From the NCBI GenBank assembly GCA_028278425.1, contig JANQEJ010000196.1:1-64000 (forward strand): a stretch of 64,000 bases of DNA, in the 5' to 3' direction. A program made the position numbers and the translations under genes. This stretch comes from Planctomycetota bacterium (lineage in GTDB: Bacteria > Planctomycetota > UBA1135 > GCA-002686595). The notes beneath the pieces were generated by a model. The model worked only from the letters and a program-made list of their open reading frames with translations. It had not been told where the DNA came from and made no database searches. Positions 44,347 through 60,956 of the stretch are shown piece by piece; within the stretch, counting starts at the first letter, position 1; each line of letters opens with the position of its first letter.

Positions 44347-44833
44347 TCCGCGCGAGGTGGTGGTCGTCGTGCTCCGCCTGGAAGAAGCAGAGGTCGACGA
44401 GCCGCATCCGGGTCTTCACGCGCGGATGCTGCGCGCTCCGCGCGAAGTCGTCCGTCGAGAGACCGTCGAGGAGCTCCACGAGCCGCTCCCGCTGCGCGCG
44501 AAAGTCGCGCAGGAGCTCCGCGACGTCCGCGGCGTTGTGGTTCGCGTCGTCGGTCGCCTGATTGCCCTCCCAGGCGGTCATCACCTCGGCGCCGGCGAGG
44601 ATCTCCTCCGCGCGCACGCGCGGGAGGTACTCGAGGTCGGCCATGTGCCCCACGTTCTCCTGAATCGACCAGCTCTCGCCGTCGCGGCGCGTCCGGACGT
44701 CGGCGGGAAGGCCGGCGACCATCTCCTCGAGCCGCGCGGGCGTGCCGCGGAGGCGCTCGACCAGGGAGAAGTGCAGCTCGACCGGGAAGTCGAGCGACCA
44801 CGGCCGTTCGAGCCAGGGGATCTTCGGCGCCAT
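44312..44833 (-). CDS. DinB-like metal-dependent protein
   Basis: This 173-residue four-helix protein starts at ATG 44833, overlapping the stop of the upstream gene (TGATG). Putative metal-binding histidines lie in 'SWSIQENVGHMADLEYLPRV' and 'CFFQAEHDDHHLARITELKR', the pattern of the DinB_2/YfiT superfamily. Such proteins are often thiol transferases or of unknown function; no SOS role is implied. It is translationally coupled to the PMT/TPR gene and overlaps the GIY-YIG gene tail to tail. Confidence 0.88.
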   Translation of the reverse strand: MAPKIPWLERPWSLDFPVELHFSLVERLRGTPARLEEMVAGLPADVRTRRDGESWSIQENVGHMADLEYLPRVRAEEILAGAEVMTAWEGNQATDDANHNAADVAELLRDFRAQRERLVELLDGLSTDDFARSAQHPRVKTRMRLVDLCFFQAEHDDHHLARITELKRTFRPS

Positions 44834-47511
44834 CAGCCTCCCTCCGGCGACGGCGGTCCGACGAGCGGGACCGCTTCGCCCGCCTTCAGCGCGCCGATGA
44901 CGCGCTCGATGTTCTGGATCGCGCCGGCCGCCTGCTGCGGCTCCCAGGTGTCCGGCGGTCCGATCTCGAGCGCGCGCTCGAGGCTCGCGATCGCCTCGTC
45001 GCTCCGCCGCAGGTCGGCGAGCACGAGCCCGTACTCGAAGCGCGGGACGAAGCGCTCCGGCAGGAGCTCGCACGAGCGCGCCATCAGGTCCGCCGCGCCC
45101 GCGAGGTCGCCGCGGTCGCGGAGCAGGCGCGCCTTGTGGAAGAGCACTTCTCCGTTCTCCGGGTCGAAGCCGATCGCCCGGTCGAACCAGAGCTCCGCGT
45201 CGTCAAATCGCTTGCGCAGACGCTCGACGTTGCCGAGTTGCGTCGCCTGCTCGGCGTCGATCGGGAGTTGGAGAAGCGTCTCGCGGATCTGCACGTACAG
45301 GTTGGGGTCCGGGCAAAGCGCATAGGCGGTCACGAGGTACGGAAGCCCGGCGTCGACCGCGCCCGAGCGCAACAGGATCACCGCGAAGTCGTAGTGGACC
45401 GCGAAGCTCCGCGGGTTGAGCTGCGCCGCGCGCCGGTAGGCGACGATGGCCTCCTGGTTCTCGTTCAGCGCGAGCAGCGCCTGCGCCTTGCGCTCCCAGG
45501 CGCCCGGGTGATCCGGCGCGACGGCGAGAACGCGGTCGACCCAGGCGAGCGAGCCGCTCGGGTTCTTGCGCAGCCCCTCGATCGTCGCGAGCAGCACCAT
45601 CGTCTCGGGCTCCTCCGGACTCTCCGCGTGAAGCTCCCGCGCAACCTCGGCGGCCTGCTCGGGCCAGCCGTCCTCGAAGAGCGCCCTTGCGAGCAGGAAG
45701 CGGTCCTTGAAGCTCTCCGGACGCTGCTCGAGCGCGCGGTCGAGATGCACGCGCGCGCGCTTCGGGTCGCCCGCATCCAGAAGGAGCTTCCCGTAGTTGG
45801 AGTGCGCCTCGGGGTAGTTCGGGTTCTCCGCCAGCGCCGCGCGGAAGGCCTTCTCGGCGGACGCGGTGCGGCCGGCGAGCGCGTGCGCGACGCCGATCGC
45901 GGTGTGGACCAGCTCGAGCTCGAGCGGCTCGACGTAGGGGCTGTCGCGGACCTCGTACGCGCGCTCGAGCACCTGCTCGAGGACCGCGATCGGCGTGTCG
46001 AAGTCGCGGTAGTCGTCGATCTGCGCCTCGAGGATCAAGCACCACGCGAAGCCGAGGTTCACCTGGAGGAAGTCGGTCGAGCTCGCGAAGACGTCGGTGT
46101 CGGGGTCGTCGAGCACTTCCTCGAGCAGATCCTGCGCCGACTCGTAGACGCCGAACGCCTCGTCGAGGTAGACGCGGTCGCCGGTCTGCCCGTAGCGGTC
46201 GAGCAACGCGCGGCCGAGACCCCACTTCGCGTACGGGCTGCGCGGATCCGCTTCGACCGTGGAGCGGAAGAGCGCCACCTCGTTGCTCCACACGCCGATC
46301 CGGTCGAAGCTCAGATAGGAGTAGACGGCGGCGATCGCGGTCAGAGCGGCGAACCCGAGCCAGCGCGGGCGTAGCTTCAGCAAACCGAGCGCGACCAGCA
46401 GCGTGAACCCGAGCACGGGCAGGTAGAGGAAGCGGTCGGAGAGCGGGAACCGCCCCAGCGACTCCACCCGGAGCAGGATCGGGACGACGCCCGCCGGCAT
46501 GAAGAGCAAGGCCAGCGCGGCGGGGCGAGCCTGCTTGACGAGCGCCCAGACGATGCCGCCGGCGGTGAGGAGCAGGCAGACGATCGGCAGCACGAGATCG
46601 CCCGGCGGAAGCGTCGGCTTGAAGGGGCGGAAGAGGTTCAGGTCGAGAGGCAGCGCGAGAAGCTGCAGCGCTCCGCCGAGGAGCTCGACCCGCAGCTCGA
46701 CGAGGCGCGCGGCACCGACGCCGAAACCCGTCGTGATGCGGTCCAGCCCGGCCGCGGGACTCTCGAACACGGCGGCGCGGGCGAGGTAGTACGCGAATCC
46801 GACGGCGACGAACGGGGCGTAGGCGCGCAGCGGCGCGGTGAAGCCGCCGAGGATCCCCTCGCCGTCGCCTTCGGTCCTGCGCCGCCCGAGGTCGATCGCG
46901 AGCGCCATCGGGACGACCGCGAACGCGAGCTCCTTCGCGAGCAGCGCGGGAACGAGCCACAGCGCCGCGGCGAGCGGAATTCCGACGGATCCGCGGTCGC
47001 GCCAGCGCAGGAAGGCGTCGAGCGAGAGCAACCCGAAGAGCCCGAAGAGCGGATCGTTCAGCGCCGTGATCCAGGCCACGCTCTCCACGTGCACCGGGTG
47101 GAGCCCGAAGAGCAGCGCCGCGAAGAACCCGATCCACGCGTCGCCGGTCACCCGCCGCGCGAAGAAGAACGCGACGGCCGTCGCGGCGAGGTGGACGAGG
47201 ATGCAGAGCGCGTGGAACGCCGCGACGCTCGCGCCGCCGAGCACGTAGGCCACGGTCAGCATCGTCGCCGTCAGCGGCCGCCAGTACCCGGTGTAGTCCG
47301 CCGACTCGTCGCCGAGGAAGTCCCAGTAGGACTGGGTGAAGTGGTTCGGGATGTTCCCGAGCTGCGTGATCTCCGGGTTGCGCGCGATCATCTGAAGGTC
47401 GTCGTAGACCAGCTCGCCGTCGAGGGCGGGCCAGTACACGAGCGCCGTGACGAGCAGGACGACGGGCAACATCCAGAGCGGCGTTCGCCGCGTTTGGGCT
47501 TCGGCGGGCAT
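44833..47511 (-). CDS. PMT/ArnT-like membrane protein with C-terminal TPR repeats
   Basis: This 892-residue protein starts at ATG 47511. About 11-12 membrane segments cover residues ~12-430. The first periplasmic loop has 'ELVYDDLQMIARNPEI', an acidic-pair motif of GT-C mannosyltransferases, and 'FGLHPVHVESVAWITALNDP' follows. The C-terminal half is a series of TPR units ('PNYPEAHSNYGKLLLDAGDP', 'FDPENGEVLFHKARLLRDRG'). This layout matches bacterial TMTC-like proteins, which may O-mannosylate exported proteins. Substrate and donor are unknown. It ends on the DinB-like start. Confidence 0.87.
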   Translation of the reverse strand: MPAEAQTRRTPLWMLPVVLLVTALVYWPALDGELVYDDLQMIARNPEITQLGNIPNHFTQSYWDFLGDESADYTGYWRPLTATMLTVAYVLGGASVAAFHALCILVHLAATAVAFFFARRVTGDAWIGFFAALLFGLHPVHVESVAWITALNDPLFGLFGLLSLDAFLRWRDRGSVGIPLAAALWLVPALLAKELAFAVVPMALAIDLGRRRTEGDGEGILGGFTAPLRAYAPFVAVGFAYYLARAAVFESPAAGLDRITTGFGVGAARLVELRVELLGGALQLLALPLDLNLFRPFKPTLPPGDLVLPIVCLLLTAGGIVWALVKQARPAALALLFMPAGVVPILLRVESLGRFPLSDRFLYLPVLGFTLLVALGLLKLRPRWLGFAALTAIAAVYSYLSFDRIGVWSNEVALFRSTVEADPRSPYAKWGLGRALLDRYGQTGDRVYLDEAFGVYESAQDLLEEVLDDPDTDVFASSTDFLQVNLGFAWCLILEAQIDDYRDFDTPIAVLEQVLERAYEVRDSPYVEPLELELVHTAIGVAHALAGRTASAEKAFRAALAENPNYPEAHSNYGKLLLDAGDPKRARVHLDRALEQRPESFKDRFLLARALFEDGWPEQAAEVARELHAESPEEPETMVLLATIEGLRKNPSGSLAWVDRVLAVAPDHPGAWERKAQALLALNENQEAIVAYRRAAQLNPRSFAVHYDFAVILLRSGAVDAGLPYLVTAYALCPDPNLYVQIRETLLQLPIDAEQATQLGNVERLRKRFDDAELWFDRAIGFDPENGEVLFHKARLLRDRGDLAGAADLMARSCELLPERFVPRFEYGLVLADLRRSDEAIASLERALEIGPPDTWEPQQAAGAIQNIERVIGALKAGEAVPLVGPPSPEGG

Positions 47512-47574
47512 GGGCGGCTGCTAGGTTATTACGGAGGACTAGGCCGGATCCACGCCACGGACACAGGGGAATCG

Positions 47575-48406: not shown

Positions 48407-49753
48407 CTACGGGCAGATCGAGATCACGACCCCGTTCGAGAGCGCCACGCCGCCCGGTAGCCCGCCGTCGAACTGACCGGCCTGGCCGTGGACCTTCGCG
48501 CCGACGAGCGCGGGCGTCGCCGGGACGCCGATCGGCTGCGTCCCGGTGCCGCTCGAGATCGCGGTCGCCAGGGTCGTGAAGATCGTCCCCGGGTCGATCA
48601 GCACCGTGCCGCCGAAGAGCGGCAGCGAGGCGTTGTTCGTGGCGACGATCGTGAGCGCGATTCCGTCGACGTTGAAGTCCGCGAGGTCGAGCGTGACGGT
48701 GCCTCCCGGGCCGGCGGCCGAGGTGCTCGACAGGCTCGCGACGTTCGCTCCGCCGGCGTCGGTCCCGTACTTGGCGACGCCGCAGGAGGGGAACGCGCCC
48801 GTCGCGTTGAACGGGAAGGCGTTGGAGAGCGAGGAGAAGCCCGAGTTCGGCTTCCTCACCAGGACGTCGCCGGAGCCGGCGGCCGCGGGCAGCGTCACCT
48901 CGATCATCGTGCCGCCGAAGGTCGAGACCACGCCGAAGAGCTTGACCGGATCGCCGGTGCCGCCGGCGCCCGCCTGGGTGAACCAGACCTCGTTCGCGGT
49001 CGGCGCGAAGTTCTGCCCGAGGATCGTGACGAGCGCGCCCTGGCCGGCGAACGCCGCTTCGATGAGCGGCTTGTCGGGCGGCACCGCGCCGTAGAGGAAC
49101 TGCATCCCGGCCTGGTCGTCCGGGCACAGGTCCCGCCCGCTGGGACCGGGCGAGTAGAAGGGCGACATCACGCAGCCCGAGACGGACGTATGCCCGAGGC
49201 CGAGCGCGTGCCCATACTGGTGCGTCGCGATCGTCTGGAGGTCGAACTGCCCCGACGGCGCGAGCCCGGGGCCGTCGTCGAACACCGAGTCGTCGTTGTA
49301 GCGGATGCGCCAGCCGCCGCCCGGTCCGAACTCGGTGATGGCGATGATGCCGGCGCCCAGGCCGAACGCGGCCGAGTGCGTGTTGCTGTCCAGGTCGCCG
49401 GCGCTCGTGTTCAGGCCCTGGAAGCTCGGGTCGAAGTTGGCGCCGCTCGAGCCGAGGTCGAACGGCTGCGTCGGATCGCCGCTGCCGTCGCCGTGCAGCG
49501 TGCTGCCCCATTCGACGGTCGCCTTCCAGATCGCGAGCGTCGCGCCCGTGTGTCCCGGGAAGTTCGGGTCCGGCGTGGTGTTGTCGTTCGCCGAGACGTC
49601 GGCGAAGTTGTTGAAGACGCGGAAGTCGCGCTGATCGAGGCCGAGCGCCGGGCCGAAGATCGTGAAGCCGAGCGCCGTAGGCGCGACCAGGAAATAGGTG
49701 CCGGTGAGCGCTGCGCCGGCGGGCAACAGCGAGAGGAGTCGTTTTGCCTTCAC
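48407..49753 (-). CDS. Matrixin-like secreted protein E, catalytic Glu replaced (HQYGH)
   Basis: This 448-residue protein starts at GTG 49753 after AAGGGA. A signal precedes 'GFTIFGPALGLDQRDFRVFN', the conserved array N-terminus. The zinc site reads HQYGHALGLGH at 178-188: all three His ligands are kept but the catalytic Glu is Gln 179 (CAG instead of GAG). One IPT/TIG-like domain follows ('NEVWFTQAGAGGTGDP...GDVLVRKPNSGFSSLSNAFP'). The C-terminal domain then differs from the other four and ends 'GGVALSNGVVISICP', with more cysteines. It is probably a zinc-binding but weakly active or inactive paralogue. Last gene of the array, 11 nt after protease D. Confidence 0.88.
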   Translation of the reverse strand: MKAKRLLSLLPAGAALTGTYFLVAPTALGFTIFGPALGLDQRDFRVFNNFADVSANDNTTPDPNFPGHTGATLAIWKATVEWGSTLHGDGSGDPTQPFDLGSSGANFDPSFQGLNTSAGDLDSNTHSAAFGLGAGIIAITEFGPGGGWRIRYNDDSVFDDGPGLAPSGQFDLQTIATHQYGHALGLGHTSVSGCVMSPFYSPGPSGRDLCPDDQAGMQFLYGAVPPDKPLIEAAFAGQGALVTILGQNFAPTANEVWFTQAGAGGTGDPVKLFGVVSTFGGTMIEVTLPAAAGSGDVLVRKPNSGFSSLSNAFPFNATGAFPSCGVAKYGTDAGGANVASLSSTSAAGPGGTVTLDLADFNVDGIALTIVATNNASLPLFGGTVLIDPGTIFTTLATAISSGTGTQPIGVPATPALVGAKVHGQAGQFDGGLPGGVALSNGVVISICP

Positions 49754-49764
49754 GTTGTGCTCCC

Positions 49765-51330
49765 TTAAATGACGAGGACCGACGCGACGTTGGACACGGG
49801 CATCGGCAGGGTCCCAAGCGTGTCGAACACCGCTACCTGGAAGTAGACGGTCGAGAAGGGCGGCAGCCCCGAGATGGGGAACGCGAGCTCGAGCGAGCCG
49901 TCGGCCGGCCCGGTCGAGATGGAAACCAGCGTGATCGTCGTGAACCCCGCGCCGATGTCCGCCGAGATGAGCCCCGGCAGGACCGACGGCGTGTTGTCGG
50001 GCGACGAAGCGAGGTAGACGACCGACCCGGGCAGCGCGCCGACGGTGAAGTCGACGTTCGTGCCGCTGAAGATCACCGCGGCCTCGTTGAGCAGCTCCGG
50101 CGGGTCGTTCGCCACGATGTTCATCTGCGTCGTGCCGGTGCCGAAGAGGGTCTGGACCCCCACGGTCACCGCCCCGAGCTTCGGAGCGACCTGGAAGTCG
50201 AAGGTGAGCGCGTTGTCGCTCTGCACGACGAACGGGACCGACTGGCCGTCGAACTGGACGTCGAGCGTCGTGTCGAAGCCGTTGCCGTTCACCGTCACGG
50301 TGACCGCGCCCTGGTTGACGGCGTTGGCCGTCGCGGGCGTGACGCCGGTCAGCGTCGGCGCGCCGGGTCCCCCGGAGGGGTCGACGGGCCACGCGTTGGA
50401 GAGCGCCGCGTTCCCCGAGGCGTTCCGGCGGACCAGGACGTCGCCGGCGCCCGCGGCCCCGGGCACGTTGACGGTGATCGTCGTCCCGCCGCCGCTGGAG
50501 GAGACGCCGCTCACGACGACGAACGGGTCGGAGCCGGCGGAGGTGACGTTCCCGTTGGTGAACCACACCTCGTTGCCGCCGCCCGAGAAGCCCGAGCCGT
50601 TGATGGTCAGCGAGCTCCCGTTCACCGAGGTGGAGAAGATGCGCGGCTTGGAGGGAGAGCGGGGGCCGTAGATCGCCTGAACCCCGGCGACGTCGTCGGC
50701 CTCGATCGAGCGCTGAGCGTTGCCCGACGCGCTCGCCGTGGCGAACATCGTCGTGCCGCCGACGAGCGAGTGGCCGAGCCCGAGGGCGTGGCCGTACTCG
50801 TGGCAGGCGATGCCCTGGAGGTCCCATTCGCCGAAGCCGGCCGGGCCGGGGCCGTCCGTCCACGTGTGGGACTCGTAGTAGCGGATCCGCCACCCGCTCG
50901 TGAAGAGGCCGCCCTCCGCGAAGGCGAGCACGCCGCCGCCTCCGCCGCTGATCGCCGAGTGGATGTTGTCCCCGGTGCCGCCGACGCTCGCGGCGTTGCC
51001 CTGGAAGCTCGGGTCGAAGTTGGCGCCGCCCGATCCCAGCCCGCCGGGCTGGCTGGGATCGCCGTTGCCGGCGCCGTGGAGCTCGCTGCCCCACTCGATG
51101 CAGCCCTTCCAGATCGCCATCTCGGCGCCGTCGAAGCCGGGGAAGTTGTCGTCGGGGGTGACGTTGTCGTTCGTCTCGGGGTCGACGAAGTTGTTGAACA
51201 GGCGGAAGTCGCGTTGCGAGAGCCCGAGGCTGTCGCCGAGGAGCGAATAGCCGGACGAGCGCGGCGCCGGCGCCAGGAGCACCGCGGCACCCCCGAGCGC
51301 CAGCGCGGGCAGAAGGAATGGGGTTCGCAT
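49765..51330 (-). CDS. Matrixin-type secreted metalloprotease D
   Basis: This 521-residue protein starts at ATG 51330, overlapping the stop of protease C (TGATG). It has a signal peptide, the family opening 'GYSLLGDSLGLSQRDFRLFN', 'FPGFDGAEMAIWKGCIEWGS', and the zinc site HEYGHALGLGH at 177-187. IPT/TIG domains follow ('NEVWFTNGN', 'APTLTGVTPATANAV'). The C-terminal beta domain ends 'SNVASVLVI', close to protease A. It has no partner gene of its own and is coupled to protease C. Probably exported and calcium- and zinc-dependent; substrate unknown. Confidence 0.92.
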   Translation of the reverse strand: MRTPFLLPALALGGAAVLLAPAPRSSGYSLLGDSLGLSQRDFRLFNNFVDPETNDNVTPDDNFPGFDGAEMAIWKGCIEWGSELHGAGNGDPSQPGGLGSGGANFDPSFQGNAASVGGTGDNIHSAISGGGGGVLAFAEGGLFTSGWRIRYYESHTWTDGPGPAGFGEWDLQGIACHEYGHALGLGHSLVGGTTMFATASASGNAQRSIEADDVAGVQAIYGPRSPSKPRIFSTSVNGSSLTINGSGFSGGGNEVWFTNGNVTSAGSDPFVVVSGVSSSGGGTTITVNVPGAAGAGDVLVRRNASGNAALSNAWPVDPSGGPGAPTLTGVTPATANAVNQGAVTVTVNGNGFDTTLDVQFDGQSVPFVVQSDNALTFDFQVAPKLGAVTVGVQTLFGTGTTQMNIVANDPPELLNEAAVIFSGTNVDFTVGALPGSVVYLASSPDNTPSVLPGLISADIGAGFTTITLVSISTGPADGSLELAFPISGLPPFSTVYFQVAVFDTLGTLPMPVSNVASVLVI

Positions 51331-52928
51331 CAGAAGAGGAGCTGCACTTCCTGCTTGTTGGAGTCCGGGATCGGGAAGACCGGCACCGGATCGAGCGCGA
51401 TGCCCTCGATGAAGAACGTCGTTCCCGGCGGCAGGCCGGGGGCGGACGGCAGGTTGAACATCTCCCACCCGTCGGGGCCGATCACGGTCTGCGGGCCGAC
51501 GGGGAAGAGCGACGTGAAGCCGTTGCCGATCTCGAGCGAAACGAGTCCCGGCAGGACCGAGGGGATGCAGTCGAACGAGATGGCGATCAGGAAGACGGAG
51601 CCCGGCGTGTAGCCGACGGTCAGGTCGATGCCGGCGAAGGAGAAGAAGCTCACCGGCTCGTCGCCCGTGCCCGCCTGGAGCGCGGGCGTGGCGTTGGCCA
51701 CGCGGTTCACCTGGGTCGAGTCCGATCCGTTGATGTTGGAGATCGACAGGGTGACCTGGCCGAGCTGGATCGGCTCGGGCGGGTCGAAGGTGATGAGGTT
51801 CGGGCTCACGACCGTGTAGGGGGAAGGGAACCCCGTGACGGGCTGGCCGTCGAGCGTCAGCGTGGTCGCCGGGAGGAACCCGGCCCCGTTGATGCTGACG
51901 ATCTGGGCCGTCCCCACGTTGACGGCCTCGATCGTCGGAGGCGACACCGAGGAGATCGTCGGCGCCGTGGGGCCGGCGCCCATCCCGTCGAGCGGGAACG
52001 CGTTCGAGAGTTGCGAGTGCGCGGTCCCCGGGATCTTGACGAGCACGTCGCCGGGTCCGGCCAGGTCGGGGATCTGAAGGCTGATCAGCGTTCCGCCCGT
52101 GGAGCCGATGCCCGTCGCCCGGACGATGGGATCCTGGTTCGTGGCGGTCTGCGCCTGGTTCGTGAACCAGACCTCGTTGTTGTTCAGGTCGAAGTTCGTT
52201 CCCGTGATCGTGACCGTGCTGCCGGCGATCGAGACGTTCGTGATCGTCGGCTTGAACGCCGACTTGGCTCCGTAGATGAACTGAACCCCGGCCTGGTCGT
52301 CGCCGACCAGGTCGCGCTGGTTGTTCCCGCTGAAGGTCGAGGGGAACATGACGGCGCCGCTCACCGAGGTGTGCCCGAGTCCGAGCGCGTGCCCGTACTC
52401 GTGGCAGCCCACGCCCTGGAGGTCCTTCTGATTCAGAATCGCGCTGCCGGGACCGTCGGACCAGTTCCAGTTCGCGTAGTACCGGATCCGCCAGCCGTTC
52501 GAGATCGGCGTCTCGGTGAAGGCGAGAACGCCGCCGCCGCCGCCGGAGATCTCGGAGTGGATGTTGTCGTTCGAGGTGCCGACGCCGGTGGCCTCGCCCT
52601 GGAAGCTCCCGTCGAAGTTGGCGTTGCCGCTGCCGAGGTCGCCCGGGTTGAGGGGATCGCCGTTGCCGTTGCCGTGGAGCTCGCTGCCCCATTCGACCGT
52701 GGACTTCCAGAGCGCCATCACCGCGCCCTGGTGACCGGGGAACTGCGGGTCCGGCACTTGGTTGTTGTTGGCGCTGACGTCGGTGAAGTTGTTGAAGATG
52801 CGGACGTCGCGCTGCGTCAGGTCGAGGTCGCCGCCGATCGTGGAGAAAGCGAAGCCGCCGGTCGGGGCGAGGAGCATCGCGCCCGCGCCAAGGGCGACCG
52901 CTGGGAGGAAGAGTGTCGTGAGTTTCAT
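51330..52928 (-). CDS. Matrixin-type secreted metalloprotease C
   Basis: This 532-residue protein starts at ATG 52928 after GGGAGG. Signal MKLTTLFLPAVALGAGAMLL, then 'FSTIGGDLDLTQRDVRIFNN'. The zinc site HEYGHALGLGH lies at 176-186, in the sequence 'LQGVGCHEYGHALGLGHTSV'. Two IPT/TIG domains ('KPTITNVSIAGSTVTITG', 'APTISSVSPPTIEAVNVG') and a C-terminal domain ending 'PIPDSNKQEVQLLF' follow. That end is closest to protease B ('PLPDTNHQEVDILF'). Its partner gene ends 15 nt upstream. Confidence 0.93.
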   Translation of the reverse strand: MKLTTLFLPAVALGAGAMLLAPTGGFAFSTIGGDLDLTQRDVRIFNNFTDVSANNNQVPDPQFPGHQGAVMALWKSTVEWGSELHGNGNGDPLNPGDLGSGNANFDGSFQGEATGVGTSNDNIHSEISGGGGGVLAFTETPISNGWRIRYYANWNWSDGPGSAILNQKDLQGVGCHEYGHALGLGHTSVSGAVMFPSTFSGNNQRDLVGDDQAGVQFIYGAKSAFKPTITNVSIAGSTVTITGTNFDLNNNEVWFTNQAQTATNQDPIVRATGIGSTGGTLISLQIPDLAGPGDVLVKIPGTAHSQLSNAFPLDGMGAGPTAPTISSVSPPTIEAVNVGTAQIVSINGAGFLPATTLTLDGQPVTGFPSPYTVVSPNLITFDPPEPIQLGQVTLSISNINGSDSTQVNRVANATPALQAGTGDEPVSFFSFAGIDLTVGYTPGSVFLIAISFDCIPSVLPGLVSLEIGNGFTSLFPVGPQTVIGPDGWEMFNLPSAPGLPPGTTFFIEGIALDPVPVFPIPDSNKQEVQLLF

Positions 52929-52942
52929 GGTCTGCGCCTCCC

Positions 52943-53497
52943 TTATCGCTTCTCGATCTCTTCGGCGATCGAAGCGACCGCCTGCCGCAGGCTGGCGAGG
53001 TCGCGGTTCGTCGTGACGGCGTAGCCTTCCCCGCGACCTAGAACGACCTGTCCGGTCGGGCCCGGAACGGTCCGGTAGAGGCCGCCGTGGGACGCGTACA
53101 GCGCGTTGGCCGCCACGTCGCCGCCCATGTTGTCGGTCCACTTGTAAAAGGCGACGACGAGGTTCCCGACGCGGACGTCGTCCGCCGAGGGAGCCTCGGA
53201 GTTGTAGACGCCCTCCTCGTCGTTGATGAAGCCGCCCGGGTAGGTGACGTCGACGGTCATCGGCGTCCCGTCGATGAGGGACGTGCCCTCGAGCGTGAGC
53301 GTCGTGTAGTAGAGCTCCGGACCATCGACGGGGTGGTCCACGCGGAAGACGTGTTGGTCGGTGATCTCGGCGTACACGGCGTGGTCGCTCTTGGCCACGA
53401 TCTGGTCGAGCGTCAGGCGCTCGATCTGGCCGAGTCCGAGGGGAACCATCGACGCGCCCAGGACGAGGGCGGTCAGGGCCAGGATCCTGGTTTTCAT
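52943..53497 (-). CDS. Matrixin-associated secreted protein C
   Basis: This 184-residue protein starts at ATG 53497 (MKTRILALTALVLGASMVPL, a signal peptide). The mature part opens 'IERLTLDQIVAKSDHAVYAE' and contains the blocks 'DVTYPGGFINDEEGVYNSEA', 'AFYKWTDNMGGDVAANALYA' and 'SHGGLYRTVPGPTGQVVLGR', kept in all three copies. It has no catalytic motif or anchor. The pattern (variable exposed strand, PGG, then a hydrophobic FYKW strand) suggests a small beta-barrel. I recall similar proteins next to matrixin genes elsewhere. It could be an inhibitor, chaperone or substrate adaptor for the protease; this is inference. Confidence 0.85.
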   Translation of the reverse strand: MKTRILALTALVLGASMVPLGLGQIERLTLDQIVAKSDHAVYAEITDQHVFRVDHPVDGPELYYTTLTLEGTSLIDGTPMTVDVTYPGGFINDEEGVYNSEAPSADDVRVGNLVVAFYKWTDNMGGDVAANALYASHGGLYRTVPGPTGQVVLGRGEGYAVTTNRDLASLRQAVASIAEEIEKR

Positions 53498-53616
53498 GAT
53501 CGGTCTCGCTGGATTGGGGACGGGGAAGCGCAGCCGGTCGGCCACCATCCTGCCACTTCCGGCGTGAATCGGACGAACCTTCGTGCCCGGGAGTTCCCCG
53601 GGGGCCCAAACGAGAG

Positions 53617-53650
53617 CGGGCCGGCGCCCCGTTCTGGGGACGCCGGCCCG
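53617..53650 (-). terminator. Strong GC hairpin after protease B, probable terminator
   Basis: A 10-bp arm CGGGCCGGCG (53617-53626) pairs with CGCCGGCCCG (53641-53650), extended by CCCC/GGGG around a GTTCT loop, with one unpaired A. It lies 23 nt past the protease B stop on the minus strand. Only a weak run of T follows, so it may stop transcription partly or be Rho-assisted. It separates unit B from unit C. Confidence 0.6.
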
Positions 53651-53672
53651 CGTATTTCCGTGCCTGGGGCCT

Positions 53673-55259
53673 CTAGAAGAGGATGTCGACCTCCTGGTGG
53701 TTGGTGTCAGGCAGGGGGAACGAACCGTCGAACGTGATGCCCTCGATCCAGAAGGTCACGCCCGGCGCCGACGGGATCGGGACGTTGAGCGTCGCCAGAC
53801 CCACGCTGTCGAGGTTCAGGGTCGCCAGGTGCAGGAGCGACGTCAGGTTGTTGCCGATCGCCAGCGAGAAGAAGCCCGGGACGACGCTCGGGATCTCGTC
53901 GAGCGAGGCAAACAGGAAGAACGTGTCGCTGGGCCCGCCGGCGGCCGTGACGTCGAGGCCCGCGAACGAGAAGACCGAGACGGGCTCGTCGCCGGTCCCG
54001 CCCTGGAGCGCCGGGGGATCGTTCGCCACGAACGTGATCGTCGTGGAGTCGGAGTCCGAGCCCTCCTTCACCGTCAGAGTCGCGTTGCCGAGCGCCGTCG
54101 CGTTCGGCGGATCCAGCGTGATCGTCGTGCTGCCGATGACGCTGTAGGGCGACGGGATGCCGGCCACCGGCACGCCGTTGATCTCGATCGTGGTCGTCGG
54201 CGAGAAGCCGGTCCCGGTGATCGTGACGAACTGGGAGGTGCCGACGTTCAGCGCGTCGATGGTGCTCGGCGTGACGCTCGTGATCGAGAGACCGCCCGGG
54301 CCGCCGCCGCCGCCGAGGTCGACGGGCCAACTGTTCGACAGCGACGAGTTACCGCTGGCGTTCTTCTGGACCATGATGTCGCCGTCGCCCGCGCCCGCGG
54401 GGATGGTGACGTTGATGACGCCGCCGGCGGAGCTCAAGCCGGCCACGACCACCTTCGGGTCGAGGCCGGTCGCGGTCGTGCTGCCGTTCGTGAACCAGAC
54501 CTGGTTGTTGCTGGCGCTGAACTGCGTGCCGGTGATGGTCACGAGGCTGCCGTTGACGCTCACGTTCGTGATCGTCGGCTTGGTACCCGACTTGGAGCCG
54601 TAGATGAACTGGACGCCGTTGATGTCGTCGGTCGCGATCGAGCGCTGGCTGACGCCCGTGCCGCTGATGAACGACGTCATCGTCGAGCCGGAGACCGTGG
54701 TGTGCCCGAGGCCGAGCGCGTGCCCGTACTCGTGGCAGGCCACGCCCTGGAGGTCGATCTGGTTGAAGGTCGGCGATTGGGGGCCGTCCTGCCAGATCCA
54801 CGACTCGTAGTACCGGATCCGCCAGCCGTTCGAGATCGGCGTCTCGGTGAAGGCGAGGACGCCGCCGCTGCCGCCGGAGAGCGCCGAGTGGATGTTGTTG
54901 TTGGTGGAGCCGACGCCGTTCGCCTCGCCCTGGAAGTTGGCGTCGAAGTTCGCGCCGCCGCTTCCGATAACGGCCTGCGAGGGGTCGCCGGTGCCGTCAC
55001 CGTGGATACCGCTGTTCCACTCGATGCACGCCTTCCAGATCGCCATGACCGCGCCCTGGTGGCCGGGGAACTGGTCGTCGGGGGTCTGGTTGTCGTTGGC
55101 GGTGGAGTCGGTGAAGTTGTTGAACGTGCGGAAGTCGCGCTGGCCCGTGCCGAGGCTTCCACCGATGGTGCTGAAGCCGTGGGAGTCGGGGGCGGGAGCG
55201 AGGAGCATGCCCGCGGCGCCGAGCGCGAGGGAGGGGAGGACGATGGTCTTGAATTTCAT
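53673..55259 (-). CDS. Matrixin-type secreted metalloprotease B
   Basis: This 528-residue protein starts at ATG 55259. After a signal peptide come 'GFSTIGGSLGTGQRDFRTFN' and 'FPGHQGAVMAIWKACIEWNS', and the zinc site HEYGHALGLGH at 176-186. Then two IPT/TIG domains ('KPTITNVSVNGSLVTITGTQ', 'LSITSVTPSTIDALNVGT') and the C-terminal domain ending 'NHQEVDILF'. Partner gene B ends 18 nt upstream and a strong hairpin follows its stop, so the pair forms one transcription unit. I see no anchor and no cysteine-switch propeptide. Confidence 0.93.
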   Translation of the reverse strand: MKFKTIVLPSLALGAAGMLLAPAPDSHGFSTIGGSLGTGQRDFRTFNNFTDSTANDNQTPDDQFPGHQGAVMAIWKACIEWNSGIHGDGTGDPSQAVIGSGGANFDANFQGEANGVGSTNNNIHSALSGGSGGVLAFTETPISNGWRIRYYESWIWQDGPQSPTFNQIDLQGVACHEYGHALGLGHTTVSGSTMTSFISGTGVSQRSIATDDINGVQFIYGSKSGTKPTITNVSVNGSLVTITGTQFSASNNQVWFTNGSTTATGLDPKVVVAGLSSAGGVINVTIPAGAGDGDIMVQKNASGNSSLSNSWPVDLGGGGGPGGLSITSVTPSTIDALNVGTSQFVTITGTGFSPTTTIEINGVPVAGIPSPYSVIGSTTITLDPPNATALGNATLTVKEGSDSDSTTITFVANDPPALQGGTGDEPVSVFSFAGLDVTAAGGPSDTFFLFASLDEIPSVVPGFFSLAIGNNLTSLLHLATLNLDSVGLATLNVPIPSAPGVTFWIEGITFDGSFPLPDTNHQEVDILF

Positions 55260-55277
55260 GGCTGTTTCCTCCCTGGA

Positions 55278-55823
55278 CTACTTGCCCTCGACTTTGATGG
55301 CCGTGATGGCCGCGTCGAGGCTCGCAAGGCTGCGGTTGGTGTCGATGGCGTAGCCCTCGCCCTGGCCGAGCACGACCGTTCCGGTCGGGCCGTCCACGGT
55401 GCGGAAGAGGCCGCCGTGAGAGGCGTACAGCGCGTTCGCGGCGACGTCGCCGCCGAGGTTGTCGCTCCACTTGTAGAAGGCGACGACCTTGTTGCCGACC
55501 TTGGCGTCGTCGTCGGACGGAGCCTCGGAGTTGTAGACGCCTTCCTGTTCGTTAATGAAGCCGCCGGGGTACGTCACGTCCACGGTCATGGGCGTGCCGT
55601 CAACGAGCGAGTAGCCATCAAGCGTGAGCGTGGTGAAGTAGAGCTCCGGACCGTCGACCGGGTGGTCGACGCGGAACACCGTCTTCCCGGTGATCTCGGC
55701 GTACACGGAGTTGTCGGTCTTGGCGACCATTTGATCGAGGTTCAGCTTCTCGATCTGCGCGCCGCCGAGCGCCGCCACCGCCGCGACGGCTAGCGCCGAC
55801 AGGACGAGGGACTGCTTTCTCAT
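55278..55823 (-). CDS. Matrixin-associated secreted protein B
   Basis: This 181-residue protein starts at ATG 55823 after AGGAAGG. Signal MRKQSLVLSALAVAAVAALG. The mature protein starts 'AQIEKLNLDQMVAKTDNSVY' and keeps the blocks 'YPGGFINEQEGVYNSEAPSD', 'AFYKWSDNLGGDVAANALYA' and 'SHGGLFRTVDGPTGTVVLGQ'. It is clearly more similar to partner C than to partner A. It directly precedes protease B. Secreted, unknown function, no catalytic residues recognised. Confidence 0.85.
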   Translation of the reverse strand: MRKQSLVLSALAVAAVAALGGAQIEKLNLDQMVAKTDNSVYAEITGKTVFRVDHPVDGPELYFTTLTLDGYSLVDGTPMTVDVTYPGGFINEQEGVYNSEAPSDDDAKVGNKVVAFYKWSDNLGGDVAANALYASHGGLFRTVDGPTGTVVLGQGEGYAIDTNRSLASLDAAITAIKVEGK

Positions 55824-56164
55824 GGGTCTGAAAATCCTTCCTGGTGGTTGGCTGCGGTTCGGCCCCCATCCGACGGCTGGAACGTCCTCGAATCCGGTCG
55901 GAGCTGGCCGGTGGATGGGCGGGACGGCCCGGGAAAGGGGGGGATGGAGGCCTACGGCCGTGCCCGGGGGAGCGCCCGGCGACCGTACACTCGGGCATTA
56001 GAAGGTAAGGAGCGACGGATAGGTTCCCTCGCATCCGATTTTCGGGGGCGGGGCCGGCCTGGACAAACGAAGCCCATACAGTCGACCCGGGGTCCCTCTC
56101 CGACGTACGGAGGCGCAGGAACCCAAACCTACCTCGCTTCCCGGCCCCTCCAGGGGGCTTCCGC
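55824..56164. other. 341-bp intergenic region between units A and B
   Basis: I find no gene here. Just after the protease A stop there is a short perfect hairpin, GCCCC-TCCAG-GGGGC (56144-56158), too small to call a terminator with confidence. The rest has no clear promoter or repeat, though the promoter for unit B should lie here. Confidence 0.5.
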
Positions 56165-57757
56165 TCAGAAGTAGAAGGTGCCGGTGGCCACGTTGCTCGT
56201 GGCGTAGGGGGGGCCCACGGCGGGGTCGAGGACCGCGGCCTGGAGGTGGATCTGGGTCCCGAAGGGCAGGCCGGGGGCGAGCGGAACGTCGAAACCGATC
56301 CAGGCGTGGGTCGGCACGGGACCCCCGCCGAGCAGCACGACCGAGGTCCCGCCCCCGATGTCGGCGGAGAGCACGCCGGGGATCACGGTCGGGGCGAGCA
56401 GGAGCGAGCCCGCGAGGTAAAGGCGGTGTCCCTCGGGGGCGCCGGCGGCGATCTTCATTCCGCTCGCGGAGAAGAGGAACGGGCTGTCCAGCGCGACGAC
56501 GGGCGGATCGTTGGCGACGACGTTGACCGCGCCGGGAGCCGAGGTGCCGAAGGCGTTGGTCAGCTCGAGCGGGAGCGCTCCCACCGCGTTCTGGAGCGGA
56601 ACGTCCACCGTCACCGACGTGTCGTCCAGCACGTTGACGAGCAGCGGGTCCACGACGACCCCGTCGATCCGCGTCTCCGTCAGGCCGGCGAAGCCGGTCC
56701 CGGTGATCGTGATCACGTTGGATCCGACGGCGACCGCGGCGACGCTGCTCGGCGACACCCCGCTGATCGTCGGCGGGCCGTACGGCGAGCCCTGGCCCTG
56801 CGGGTCGAGCGGCCAGGCGTTGGAGAGCGCCGCGTGCCCCGTCCCGGCGATCTTGACCAGGACGTCGCCCGGACCGGCCTCGGCGGGCAGCGCGACGATG
56901 ATCAGGGATCCGTTCTGGCTCGAGGCGATGCCGGTGACCTTCACGATCGGGTCGGCCTCCGGCGCCGTCGGCGCGGCGTTGGTGAACCACACCTCGTTGC
57001 CGACGGCCGAGAAGTTCACGCCGGAGATCGTGGCGGTGCCCGCCGCGGAGTCGACCACGACCTGGGTGATGCGCGGCTTGGTCGCGCTCTTGATGCCGTA
57101 GATCGCCTGCACGCCGGCGGCGTCGTCCGGCTCGATCGAACGCTGCGCCACGCCGGCGCCGCTGACCGTCGGGTACATCGTCGCGCCGACGACGCCGGAG
57201 TGCCCCAGCCCGAGCGCGTGCCCGTACTCGTGCGTCGCGACCCCCTGCAGGTCCATCGCGCCGGACTCCGGGTCCCCCGGCCCGTCGTCCCAGGTCCACG
57301 AGTCGTAGTAGCGGATCCGCCAGCCGTTCGCGATCGGCGTCTCGCAGTAGGCGAGCACCCCGCCGTTCTGCCCGCCGATCGCGGAGTGGACGTTGTCGTT
57401 GATCCCGCCGATCCCGGTCGCGTTGCTCTGCCAGACCGCGTCGAAGTTCGCGCCGCCGGAGCCCAGGTCGCCGAGTTGGTGCGGGTCGCCCTGCCCGTCG
57501 CCGTGCAGCTCGCTGCCCCATTCGACGGTCGCCTTCCAGATCGCGAGCTCGGCGCCGGTGTGGCCGGGGAAGCTCGGTTCCGGGGCCGCGTTGTCGTTCG
57601 CCTGCGGGTCGGCGAAGTTGTCGTAGACGCGCACGTCGCGCTGCGTCAGGCCGAGCGCGCCGCCGATGGTCGAGAACCCGGGCGCCGGCGCCGGCGCCAC
57701 CAACCAGGCGCCCGCGCCGACGGCGAGCGCGGCGGGAAGGAGCCGGAGGATCTTCAC
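56165..57757 (-). CDS. Matrixin-type secreted metalloprotease A
   Basis: This 530-residue protein starts at GTG 57757, one base after the stop of partner A. Signal MKILRLLPAALAVGAGAWLV, then 'GFSTIGGALGLTQRDVRVYD', 'FPGHTGAELAIWKATVEWGS', and the zinc site HEYGHALGLGH at 176-186 ('LQGVATHEYGHALGLGHSGV'). Two IPT/TIG domains follow ('KPRITQVVVDSAAGTATISG', 'PPTISGVSPSSVAAVAVG'). The C-terminal domain ends 'SNVATGTFYF', resembling protease D. Exported zinc metalloprotease; substrate unknown. Confidence 0.93.
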   Translation of the reverse strand: MKILRLLPAALAVGAGAWLVAPAPAPGFSTIGGALGLTQRDVRVYDNFADPQANDNAAPEPSFPGHTGAELAIWKATVEWGSELHGDGQGDPHQLGDLGSGGANFDAVWQSNATGIGGINDNVHSAIGGQNGGVLAYCETPIANGWRIRYYDSWTWDDGPGDPESGAMDLQGVATHEYGHALGLGHSGVVGATMYPTVSGAGVAQRSIEPDDAAGVQAIYGIKSATKPRITQVVVDSAAGTATISGVNFSAVGNEVWFTNAAPTAPEADPIVKVTGIASSQNGSLIIVALPAEAGPGDVLVKIAGTGHAALSNAWPLDPQGQGSPYGPPTISGVSPSSVAAVAVGSNVITITGTGFAGLTETRIDGVVVDPLLVNVLDDTSVTVDVPLQNAVGALPLELTNAFGTSAPGAVNVVANDPPVVALDSPFLFSASGMKIAAGAPEGHRLYLAGSLLLAPTVIPGVLSADIGGGTSVVLLGGGPVPTHAWIGFDVPLAPGLPFGTQIHLQAAVLDPAVGPPYATSNVATGTFYF

Positions 57758-57758
57758 G

Positions 57759-58307
57759 TCAGCGGTTCTCCCGCTCGCGGATGCGCGACACGGCCGTTTC
57801 GAGGCTCGCGGTGCTGACGTTGTTCGCGACGGCGAAGCTCGCGCCCCGCCCCAGCGCCACCGTCCCGAGCGGGCCGTCGACCGTGCGGAAGAGGCCGCCG
57901 TGCGCCGCGTAGAGCGCGTTGCCGGAGAAGCCGCCGCCCATGTTCTCCATCCACTTGTAGAAGACGACGGCCCGCGCTCCGATCCGCGTGTCGTCCGCGG
58001 AGGGCGCCTCGGAGTTGTACACGCCCTGCTCGTCGTCGATGAACCCGCCCTGGAAGTGGACGTCCACGCGGATCGGCACGCGGTCCCGCAGCGAGTAGCC
58101 CTCGATCGTGAGCCGCGTGAAGTAGAGCCGGTCCGCGCTTCCAGCCTCGTCGATCGCGAACACGTGGCGCGCGACGATCTCCCCGAGCACCGCGTTGTCG
58201 CAGCGCTTGACCATCGTCTCGAGGTCGAGCCGCTCGATCCGGGCGTGCGCCCCGGGCGTGGTGAAGAGAACGAGGAGGAGGGCGACGAGGGCGGGAAGTT
58301 TTTTCAT
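57759..58307 (-). CDS. Matrixin-associated secreted protein A
   Basis: This 182-residue protein starts at ATG 58307. Signal MKKLPALVALLLVLFTTPGAHA. The mature part begins 'RIERLDLETMVKRCDNAVLG' and shares 'GGFIDDEQGVYNSEAPSADD', 'VFYKWMENMGGGFSGNALYA' and 'AHGGLFRTVDGPLGTVALGR' with partners B and C. It is the most divergent of the three and first in transcription order. Its stop is 1 nt before protease A, suggesting equal amounts of both proteins are needed. Confidence 0.85.
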   Translation of the reverse strand: MKKLPALVALLLVLFTTPGAHARIERLDLETMVKRCDNAVLGEIVARHVFAIDEAGSADRLYFTRLTIEGYSLRDRVPIRVDVHFQGGFIDDEQGVYNSEAPSADDTRIGARAVVFYKWMENMGGGFSGNALYAAHGGLFRTVDGPLGTVALGRGASFAVANNVSTASLETAVSRIRERENR

Positions 58308-58382: not shown

Positions 58383-60956
58383 TCAGTCGTGGTCGTGATC
58401 GTGGGCGCCCGGGACCGGCGGCCCGATGGCCTCGCGCGCGCCGGGGCCGTGCTCGATCAGCTCGATGAGCTCCTCGTCCTCGGGATGGCGCTTGAGCGCC
58501 GCCTCGAGGATCGCGCGCCCCGCCTCGTCGCCGGCGCGCAGGAGCGCCGCGCCCAGGCGCTTCGCCACGTCGAGGCGGTCGGGTTGGATGCCGTCGGCGC
58601 GTCGCAGGAGCTCGATTTCGCGCGCGTCGTCGCCGGCGCGACCGCTCCACTCCGCGGCGTCGAGGAGCAGGGCGATGTCGTAGGGCGCGGACTCCAGCGC
58701 GCGCCCGTACCAGTCGGCTGCCTCCGACGGCATCCCGAACTCCCGGTAGGCGGTCGCCACGGCGCGCTCGAGCGTCGGCCACGGACCGTGGGACTCCGCG
58801 ACGGGCTGGACGAACGTCAGGACCTTGTCCGGCATGCGCTTGCCGGTGAGAACCTCGGCGAGGCCTTCCCACCAACCGCGCGCGAAGGCGTCGGGCGCGG
58901 CCGCGTCCGCGGCGCGCGCGAAGGCCTCCAGCGCTTCGTCGTCGAGCTCCATCCGCTGCGCGGGCGTCTCGAAGGGCGAGCTGGGCCGCTGCGCGGCGGC
59001 GTGCAGCGCCAGCCCGGCGCAGAGGTCCGCCAGCGCTCCGCCTTCGTTGGCCGCCGCGATCCGCGCGATGACGTCGCGCTTCTGGCGGTCGGCCCGCATC
59101 AGCGCGCGCGTGCGAACGAAGGACAGCGCGCCCTGGCGCCACGCCGGCGGGCCGGGGTCGACGATCGCGGGCGCGTCCTTCTCCCGCTCCGTCGCGTCGC
59201 CCAGCACCATCCCGACGTTGAGGTCGTCCATGCCGCGCGAGCAGAGGATCGCGCGGTCGCCCAGGTCGCGGTTCGCGATCGGCGATGCCGCGTCGAGCCA
59301 CACGACCGCGGTGGTTCCATCGGGAACGTCGAGCGTCGCGGTCGCCGGCGCGGGCGCCGCCGCCCAGGGCATGTTGGCCGCGCTCTTGGGCAGGACCACG
59401 GGACCGTGGGCGGGCGGGACGATGACGAGGTCGTAGCTCCCGTCCTCCAGCCTTCGCCGCGCCTCCGCGGGCGCGAGCAGGGTCCCCGGCGGTTCCCCCT
59501 GCCCCTGGAACAGGAAGTCGTCGATCGGCTTCGCGTGGGAGTGCCAGGGCACCGTGCGGTCGAGACGGATCTCGCCCAGCGTGTCGAACGTGAACGCGCG
59601 CGCCGGCGTCATCTGGCCGACGAAGAGCACGCGCGCCGCGTCGCTCGCCCGCAGGTCGTGTCCGAGGAGGGCCCACGCGAACCGGATGCGGTCCGCGTCC
59701 TGGTCTTCCTCGATGCCGAGCGGCGTCACGCGCCGCCGGTCGACGGTAACGACCCGCGCACCGCCGCGGGCCGGTTCGACGGTCAACATGCCGTGGCGCG
59801 AGTGCAGCACGAGCTCGGGCTCGGCGGGCAGCCGCTGCCACGGGGCGAAGACCCAAAGTCCCCGGCGCGGCGGGGCGAAGACGAGGAGCGCGGCCAGGAG
59901 CGCCGCGCCGATCGCGGCGAGACGCGTGCGGCCGCTCGTGCCGAAGAAGGCTGCCACCGCCGCCCCCGCGGCGGCGATCCAGGTGGCGTGGGTGACGCGC
60001 TCCCAGGTCCAGGGGCCGGCCTCGCCGCGCGCGATCTGCCCGTAGCTCAAGGGGCTCATCGCGCGCATCTCGACGAACCACGGCCAAAGCGCGGTTCCGG
60101 CCGCGGCGCCGAGCAGGACGCAGGAGAGGCGCCGCCGGTGCCGCGCCCCGGCGAGCGCCGTCCCGGCCACGAAGCCGGGCACGACGAGGACCGCGCCGCC
60201 GATCAGCGCCAGGTACCGGAGCGTTCCGACGAGCCCCAGGTCCAGGCCGAAGCGGCGGACGTACGCGTCGAGCGCGCCCGGATCGAGCAGGCCGTGAAGG
60301 ATCTCAACCCCGGCGAGCGCGGCGACCGCGGCGAGCGCGAGCCCGCCGGCGAGCACCGCGGGCGCCCGGTCGCCCTTGGCGAGCGGCGCTCCGAAGGCCA
60401 CCGCTCCGACGGTGAGGAGCGCGAGGAAGACCAGCCCGAGCACCGTGTCGTCCTCCGGCTGCATCATCCCGAGGTGCCGCAGGTGGTACGCGAGGCACAG
60501 GAGCGCGAGCGTGGCCCCGGCCGCCGCGGCGCCGAGGCCCAGGCGCTCGATCGGGTTCGGCGCCTCGCCTTCGCCCTCGCCGCCGCGCCCGGGTCGGGAC
60601 ACCGCGAAGTAAGCGCCGGCCGTCAGGATCACGACGGTCGCGCCGAAGCCCAGCCGCGACTCGGGCTCCCACAGCGTCTTCAGCAAGAGCCCGTGCAGGC
60701 CGAAGCCCGCGGTGACCGCGGCGAGCAGCCACCCGACGGAAACGCCGCTGCCTTCCGTGACCTTCGCGACGCGGCCCATGACCGCGGCGAAGAGCAGGAG
60801 CCCGGCCGCACGGAAGAATGCCGCGGTCGTCCCGTCGACGGCCGGCACGTGCGTCACGTCCAGTCCGGTCGGCGCGCGCATCGCCGACAAGAGCACCCCG
60901 CCGAGCAGACCGGCGGCGATCAGTCGAAGGAGGGGCCGTCCCAAAACGGCGGACAC
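58383..60956 (-). CDS. Large membrane protein with possible spermidine-synthase-like domain and TPR tail
   Basis: This 857-residue protein starts at GTG 60956. About ten membrane segments cover residues ~8-360. The middle ('ARVVTVDRRRVTPLGIEEDQ', 'ARVLFVGQMTPARAFTFDTL', 'EARRRLEDGSYDLVIVPPAH') resembles the membrane-fused spermidine-synthase-like fold, but the usual GxGxG SAM motif is not clear, so catalysis is doubtful. TPR-like helices follow ('AADWYGRALESAPYDIALLL'). It ends in HDHDHD, a possible metal-binding tail. I do not recognise the function. The ExbD gene ends 36 nt upstream on the same strand. Confidence 0.7.
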   Translation of the reverse strand: MSAVLGRPLLRLIAAGLLGGVLLSAMRAPTGLDVTHVPAVDGTTAAFFRAAGLLLFAAVMGRVAKVTEGSGVSVGWLLAAVTAGFGLHGLLLKTLWEPESRLGFGATVVILTAGAYFAVSRPGRGGEGEGEAPNPIERLGLGAAAAGATLALLCLAYHLRHLGMMQPEDDTVLGLVFLALLTVGAVAFGAPLAKGDRAPAVLAGGLALAAVAALAGVEILHGLLDPGALDAYVRRFGLDLGLVGTLRYLALIGGAVLVVPGFVAGTALAGARHRRRLSCVLLGAAAGTALWPWFVEMRAMSPLSYGQIARGEAGPWTWERVTHATWIAAAGAAVAAFFGTSGRTRLAAIGAALLAALLVFAPPRRGLWVFAPWQRLPAEPELVLHSRHGMLTVEPARGGARVVTVDRRRVTPLGIEEDQDADRIRFAWALLGHDLRASDAARVLFVGQMTPARAFTFDTLGEIRLDRTVPWHSHAKPIDDFLFQGQGEPPGTLLAPAEARRRLEDGSYDLVIVPPAHGPVVLPKSAANMPWAAAPAPATATLDVPDGTTAVVWLDAASPIANRDLGDRAILCSRGMDDLNVGMVLGDATEREKDAPAIVDPGPPAWRQGALSFVRTRALMRADRQKRDVIARIAAANEGGALADLCAGLALHAAAQRPSSPFETPAQRMELDDEALEAFARAADAAAPDAFARGWWEGLAEVLTGKRMPDKVLTFVQPVAESHGPWPTLERAVATAYREFGMPSEAADWYGRALESAPYDIALLLDAAEWSGRAGDDAREIELLRRADGIQPDRLDVAKRLGAALLRAGDEAGRAILEAALKRHPEDEELIELIEHGPGAREAIGPPVPGAHDHDHD

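Follow-up and report, generated by a model that had tools for sequence, protein, structure and literature searches.

Why should a bacterium keep five secreted zinc proteases of the matrix metalloproteinase (MMP) family in a row, the first three each preceded by a small exported protein? The question is raised by the window considered here, the whole of a 64,000-nucleotide (nt) stretch of DNA from an uncultured Planctomycetota bacterium (assembly GCA_028278425.1, contig JANQEJ010000196.1, positions 1 to 64,000), whose genome amounts to 7.83 Mb in 364 contigs. Its minus strand, read from 58307 down to 48407, carries in order partner A, matrixin A, partner B, matrixin B, partner C, matrixin C, matrixin D and matrixin E, so that the eight-gene tandem array on one strand over 10 kb, reported in a preliminary description of this DNA, is there as claimed. 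Since most of the proteases in this row are encoded beside a protein predicted to have the shape of TIMP (tissue inhibitor of metalloproteinases), a so far unnamed couple of MMP and inhibitor seems to be widespread in this bacterial phylum.

MMPs remodel animal tissue, and the control that TIMPs exert over them is a textbook case of regulation by a dedicated inhibitor. TIMPs have been treated within Metazoa in a study of their evolution (PMC10755359). A cysteine-free TIMP-like protein co-encoded with a bacterial matrixin, phylum-wide and sometimes fused to it, would be a testable bacterial counterpart. It would also put a probable function to a protein family for which neither Pfam nor NCBIfam, both of which were scanned, has a model, offer a small disulfide-free scaffold for metalloprotease inhibitors, and help to explain how Planctomycetota handle secreted proteases seemingly made without a prodomain.

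Pairing across genomes, a sister family and fusions

The partner of the array, here termed type 1, has three copies in its own genome, all of them in the window. Among 101 relatives the partner is present in 66 and matrixins in 91. Partner loci from named genomes, 53 in number, all come from metagenome-assembled genomes, mostly labelled Planctomycetota with a few given only as ‘bacterium’; a matrixin is directly downstream in 51 of them and the other two (L101 and L121) run off the contig. The loci from the relatives have it downstream in 28 of 29 cases, the 29th being a contig end, and it is contig ends again that account for most of the seeming instances of partner without protease in the relatives. 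In the 28 loci the likely start of the matrixin lies from −4 to about +22 nt from the partner stop. The contrary pattern, partner homologues mostly standing without a matrixin, is clearly not what these genomes hold.

Arrays of at least two pairs are also present in other genomes (G030, G008 and G100), and at one locus (L075) two partners in tandem are ahead of a single matrixin. One true exception is a genus (G038, with G055 in agreement) in which the partner is present and the matrixin is absent from between the same two flanking genes. There the partner core has been kept and the N-terminal QIERL block lost, the two losses being counted as a single evolutionary event. A plasmid collection that was searched gave no match to the partner, and the two of ten plasmid matrixins that were opened (from Paenibacillus and Streptomyces) have no such gene annotated directly before them.

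On another contig (C5) of the same genome a further matrixin has directly before it a different small exported protein, the type 2 partner. This is found in 70 of the 101 relatives, and a matrixin is next in all 30 loci read, mostly with a 1- or 4-nt overlap of the kind typical of translational coupling. By profile comparison (hhalign probability 91%, E 9e-7 over 90 columns) the two types of partner are remote homologues. The type 2 profile matches 117 of 392 genomes of the phylum, and the matrixin motif is directly downstream in 45 of the 60 matched loci opened outside the order. At L284 there is a matrixin, verified with Pfam, whose motif the regular expression missed, L277 and L281 have downstream a gene of unclear kind, possibly metalloprotease-like, and at L286 and L287 the motif is upstream of the partner rather than downstream. 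Behind each of three matrixin-less partner-like proteins (L251, L257 and L261) is a gene of one and the same sort, whose product begins with MPDRI or VPDRI, and the proteins of this branch may do something else.

In three relatives (L256, L271 and L276) partner and matrixin share a single open reading frame and would be one polypeptide, with the partner N-terminal as the gene order of the pairs would have it. Each has a matrixin part that exceeds the Pfam cut-off and a partner part recognized as a profile match. A glycine-rich linker without a hydrophobic segment joins the domains in L271, and there are hydrophobic stretches between them in L256 and L276. The earlier proposal that repeated tight pairing reflects a functional couple thus gains support from both sets of type 1 loci, from the sister family and from the fusions. 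Chance clustering of unrelated secreted genes is ruled out by the conservation of the pairing. A toxin–antitoxin pair was also considered and is ruled out, as export leaders on both products leave no cytoplasmic antidote.

Predicted fold and proposed mode of action

What kind of protein is the partner? AlphaFold2 models of type 1 (predicted local distance difference test, pLDDT, 89.2; predicted template modelling score, pTM, 0.82) and type 2 (pLDDT 89.1, pTM 0.75) were compared blind with the PDB by Foldseek. The top two matches to type 1 are TIMP-2 with MMP-13 (prob 1.00, E 0.007) and free TIMP-2 (prob 0.99, E 0.013), with other OB folds and further NTR-type entries below. For type 2, all 18 top rows are TIMP-1, TIMP-2 or relatives of the same fold (agrin NtA, PCOLCE NTR), after which come the NTR domains of C3b and meteorin. 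For this small exported partner the models thus predict an OB fold of TIMP/NTR-like type, and of the roles suggested in the preliminary description (inhibitor, folding helper or adaptor) it is the inhibitor to which the fold points, TIMP leading the structure searches with both families (prob 1.00). When a profile built from 90 partner sequences was aligned with the N-domains of three human TIMPs, entered in provisional letters, the hhalign score was 24.8 (probability 20%), the best of 60 column shuffles reaching 17.0. The register sets partner residue 8 on TIMP residue 8, counted from mature N-termini of which that of the partner is predicted; the type 1 profile alone gave no hhalign alignment to the human N-domains.

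In both families the columns ahead of an AxA-type cleavage site are variable and strict conservation starts directly after it. The mature type 1 protein would begin Q-I-E-R-L, with Ile at position 2 in 32 of 32 sequences, and type 2 G-T-A-V/L-R, with Thr at position 2 in 29 of 30; neither a lipobox nor a cysteine is present at the cleavage site in the alignment. TIMPs inhibit MMPs by setting their N-terminal residue on the zinc, while residue 2 sends its side chain into the S1' pocket.

On the protease side, matrixins A to E score 48.8–56.2 bits against the PF00413 cut-off of 24. The zinc site HExxHxxGxxH, with its catalytic Glu, reads HEYGHALGLGH in A to D and lacks the catalytic Glu in E (HQYGH); the Met of the Met-turn (Met 194 in the numbering of protease B) is invariant across 24 sequences. 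HExxH is at roughly residue 119 of a mature MMP catalytic domain, and an MMP prodomain has about 80 residues. In protease B the motif lies about 148 residues past the presumed signal cleavage, an excess too short for such a prodomain, and no cysteine-switch sequence was seen in it, so that the protein, as read from its sequence, appears to be made without a propeptide.

We consider it probable that the partner, TIMP-like and cysteine-free, serves to inhibit the propeptide-less matrixin encoded directly behind it or to keep it latent. We infer that it would bind in the catalytic cleft and hold the protease in check until the two have left the cell or have come to the place where its activity is required. 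Once signal peptidase has cut, the conserved N-terminus (QIERL in type 1, GTAVR in type 2) would lie over the catalytic zinc, the TIMP N-terminus in MMPs being the model for this, and since the matrixin appears to lack a propeptide the co-translated partner would supply latency in trans. The array would have arisen by duplication of the pair, with matrixins D and E probably sharing the partner of C. Type 1 matrixins that keep HExxH number 51 of 52 with a partner vs 37 of 43 without (Fisher p 0.044), a weak trend among proteins related to each other that fits, if weakly, a partner needed only for an active enzyme. The loss of the QIERL block in the genus whose locus is without the matrixin also speaks for this reading.

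Several observations weigh against such an inhibitor. Both Foldseek searches gave no match at E ≤ 1e-3 (best E 2.5e-3, TM about 0.35), and TM-scores by query length were mostly 0.3–0.4. The TIMP model of Pfam, PF00965, had nothing over its cut-off in 61 genomes and is unlisted for the partners, the partner sequence found no TIMP among PDB sequences, and no alignment column has cysteine in more than 17% of partners. Cys1 and disulfides define TIMPs; the mature partner, by its predicted cleavage, starts with Q or G. The partner is not counted here as a member of the TIMP family proper (PF00965, MEROPS I35), as it has no sequence-model match, no Cys1 and no conserved cysteines. Some 45% of type 1 matrixins are without an adjoining partner, most of them active-looking, and the 37 that keep the motif must be supposed to be controlled in trans or in some other way. 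Seven phylum-wide partners (L245, L251, L255, L257, L259, L261 and L269) have no matrixin nearby, and one genome (G063), likewise a true exception to the pairing, has a partner alone and another followed by a matrixin whose zinc site is destroyed (L131). Within-genome coevolution gave no sign of one-to-one specificity: partner and matrixin trees agree with r 0.72 (50 pairs, 38 genomes), and swapping proteases within genomes among paralogous pairs matched or bettered this agreement in 1005 of 5000 trials, so that the correlation is put down to the phylogeny of the species.

Could the partner instead be a helper dedicated to secretion or folding, in effect a trans-acting prodomain required for the protease to become active, with any inhibition incidental? 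A partner gene that comes first and is closely coupled, its prodomain-like N-terminal place in the fusions, and a protease seemingly devoid of a propeptide would all suit such a helper, but its fold resembles that of an MMP inhibitor family and not a foldase, and the many active-looking matrixins with no partner adjoining would have to manage without it; we think it unlikely. In Listeria monocytogenes the TIMP-like protein Tim is cleaved by the metzincin Mtz and released, and both are required for the phenotype (PMC8235301), from which it might be supposed that here too the partner serves chiefly as substrate or effector, a TIMP-like domain cleaved or freed by the matrixin to act elsewhere, as proposed for that pair. 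TIMP-like proteins that occur without a matrixin would fit. However, the planctomycete partner has neither a lipobox nor an N-terminal linker to cut, its conserved domain beginning at the mature N-terminus, and the lipoprotein Tim is encoded after its protease, the reverse of the order seen here, which makes such a role decidedly unlikely.

An adaptor or surface anchor placing the protease on the cell or on glycan, and tied to two conserved neighbours of the array, would make sense of finding gene X upstream in 36 of 41 testable loci and a TMTC-like gene downstream in 33 of 37, and of the IPT/TIG or PKD domains that the matrixins bear. Against this, a TIMP/NTR-like fold is no usual anchor, and on C5, elsewhere in the same genome, the sister family is coupled to another matrixin, so that the pairing is independent of the X and TMTC-like neighbourhood; an anchor appears very improbable.

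Was there, then, a bacterial beginning to the MMP–TIMP couple? If the partner were a true bacterial homologue of animal TIMP, the couple would be of bacterial origin, having begun as a unit of two genes that are sometimes fused, with the cysteine-free planctomycete form a relative of the ancestral inhibitor; we regard this as conceivable yet doubtful.

Likeness to known systems

The nearest published case found in the open-access literature is that of Listeria, in which a secreted metzincin and an exported TIMP-like protein are encoded side by side, a pair reported across many Gram-positives by authors to whom no previous account of TIMP-like structures in bacteria was known (PMC8235301). Tim and the planctomycete partner are alike in being exported and in having a TIMP-like predicted structure without a TIMP sequence match. 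They differ in that Tim, a lipobox-bearing lipoprotein, has its gene behind that of the protease, whereas the planctomycete partner comes first and has a signal-peptidase-I-type site; in that Mtz-Tim is phage-associated with a CI/Cro-like switch, whereas the present locus is without sign of phage; and in that Tim is cleaved and released. Of the earlier suggestion of an undescribed system there remains that the couple is unnamed in this phylum, while for a bacterial metzincin with a TIMP-like partner the one published precedent found is in Listeria (PMC8235301).

In Tannerella forsythia the potempin–KLIKK units, several in number, have a small inhibitor gene directly before its protease, with inhibition reported to be specific for the protease downstream (PMC7296668). 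It is in this order of inhibitor gene and cognate protease that the potempins are like the planctomycete pairs. They are, however, lipoproteins, whereas the planctomycete partners have an AxA-type site without Cys, and the KLIKK set, in a bacteroidete host, is of mixed protease classes, karilysin being a matrixin.

Animal TIMPs and MMPs (MEROPS I35 and M10A) share with the pairs the protease family PF00413. The fold predicted for the partner comes closest to TIMP-1/-2 and NTR domains, and its conserved mature N-terminus stands as far from the first strand as that of TIMP does. The planctomycete partner differs in having no conserved cysteines, no Cys1 and no PF00965 match, and in being bacterial and encoded with its protease. 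The serralysins with a co-encoded inhibitor also combine a bacterial metzincin with an inhibitor, one that forms a zinc–NH2 bond, but there the protease is a serralysin and the inhibitor is described as structurally not TIMP-like. For the catalytic part of the matrixins the nearest models are two NCBIfam entries from Myxococcota, NF041905 (MXAN_2677/2678) and NF041938 (inactivated metalloprotease), so that an inactivated family exists there too; scores are far under the cut-offs (best 47.5 of 250 bits), and those proteins are myxosortase-dependent or MYXO-CTERM anchored.

The array and its surroundings

The three partners are predicted secreted TIMP-like proteins, and like the matrixins are encoded on the minus strand. 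Partner A (57759..58307, 182 amino acids) is 1 nt from matrixin A (56165..57757, 530 amino acids, GTG start, PF00413 E 4.8e-15), partner B (55278..55823, 181 amino acids, the type 1 protein modelled) 18 nt from matrixin B (53673..55259, 528 amino acids, E 1.2e-14), and partner C (52943..53497, 184 amino acids) 14 nt from matrixin C (51330..52928, 532 amino acids, E 7.1e-13, TIG E 2.6e-7). Matrixin D (49765..51330, 521 amino acids), which has no partner of its own, starts at 51330 in overlap with the stop of matrixin C (TGATG), and matrixin E (48407..49753, 448 amino acids, GTG start, HQYGHALGLGH) begins 11 nt past D. Partners B and C are 72% identical and A and B 49%. The spacing of 1–18 nt, the three sequence blocks kept in every partner (VYNSEAPS, FYKW and GGL(F/Y)RTV.GP.G) and the signal peptides on all products, the last judged by eye from a hydrophobic leader at the N-terminus of 8 of 8, had been noted in the preliminary description and are borne out. 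Its family assignments hold for the matrixin domain, with 5 of 5 over the Pfam cut-off, and in part for IPT/TIG, which is over the cut-off only in A, C and D, under it in E and unlisted for B.

Gaps of 341 and 175 nt within the array, together with a terminator-like hairpin (53651–53616, minus strand) with a 15-bp GC-rich stem 3' of matrixin B, suggest division into three units, A, B and C-D-E. Such sites are no more numerous in the region than at the shuffled level, and this stem is by far the longest; a promoter scan of the region found no promoter.

Matrixin E, with its catalytic Glu changed to Gln and its zinc His retained, has a C-terminal domain unlike that of A to D. Since the change from Glu to Gln at this position of metzincins normally abolishes catalysis, E is probably a dead paralogue, a pseudo-enzyme. 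Probable pseudo-matrixins with Gln or His for the catalytic Glu and the zinc His kept were seen in the window (at about 49222–49190) and in G005:C49, G044:C126, G001:C535 and G063:C117, all without an adjoining partner. The C-terminal domain of A to D, which also occurs in large open reading frames without a matrixin part on contigs C112, C72, C60, C295 and C75 of the same genome, looks like a shared surface-protein module.

Gene X (58383..60956, minus strand, 857 amino acids) has a hydrophobic N-terminal half and a TPR-like C-terminal part. The TMTC-like gene (44833..47511, minus strand) encodes a membrane protein of 892 amino acids with TPRs and a weak PMT match (E 0.065). In animals the O-mannosylation of cadherin and plexin-type domains is begun by TMTC1-4 and TMEM260 (PMC11292533). 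As the matrixins carry IPT/TIG domains, an enzyme that modifies them may be worth looking for here. Between it and matrixin E, on the plus strand and so facing the array, is an SGNH/GDSL-like hydrolase gene (about 47566–48405) with a weak Pfam match (E 0.0034).

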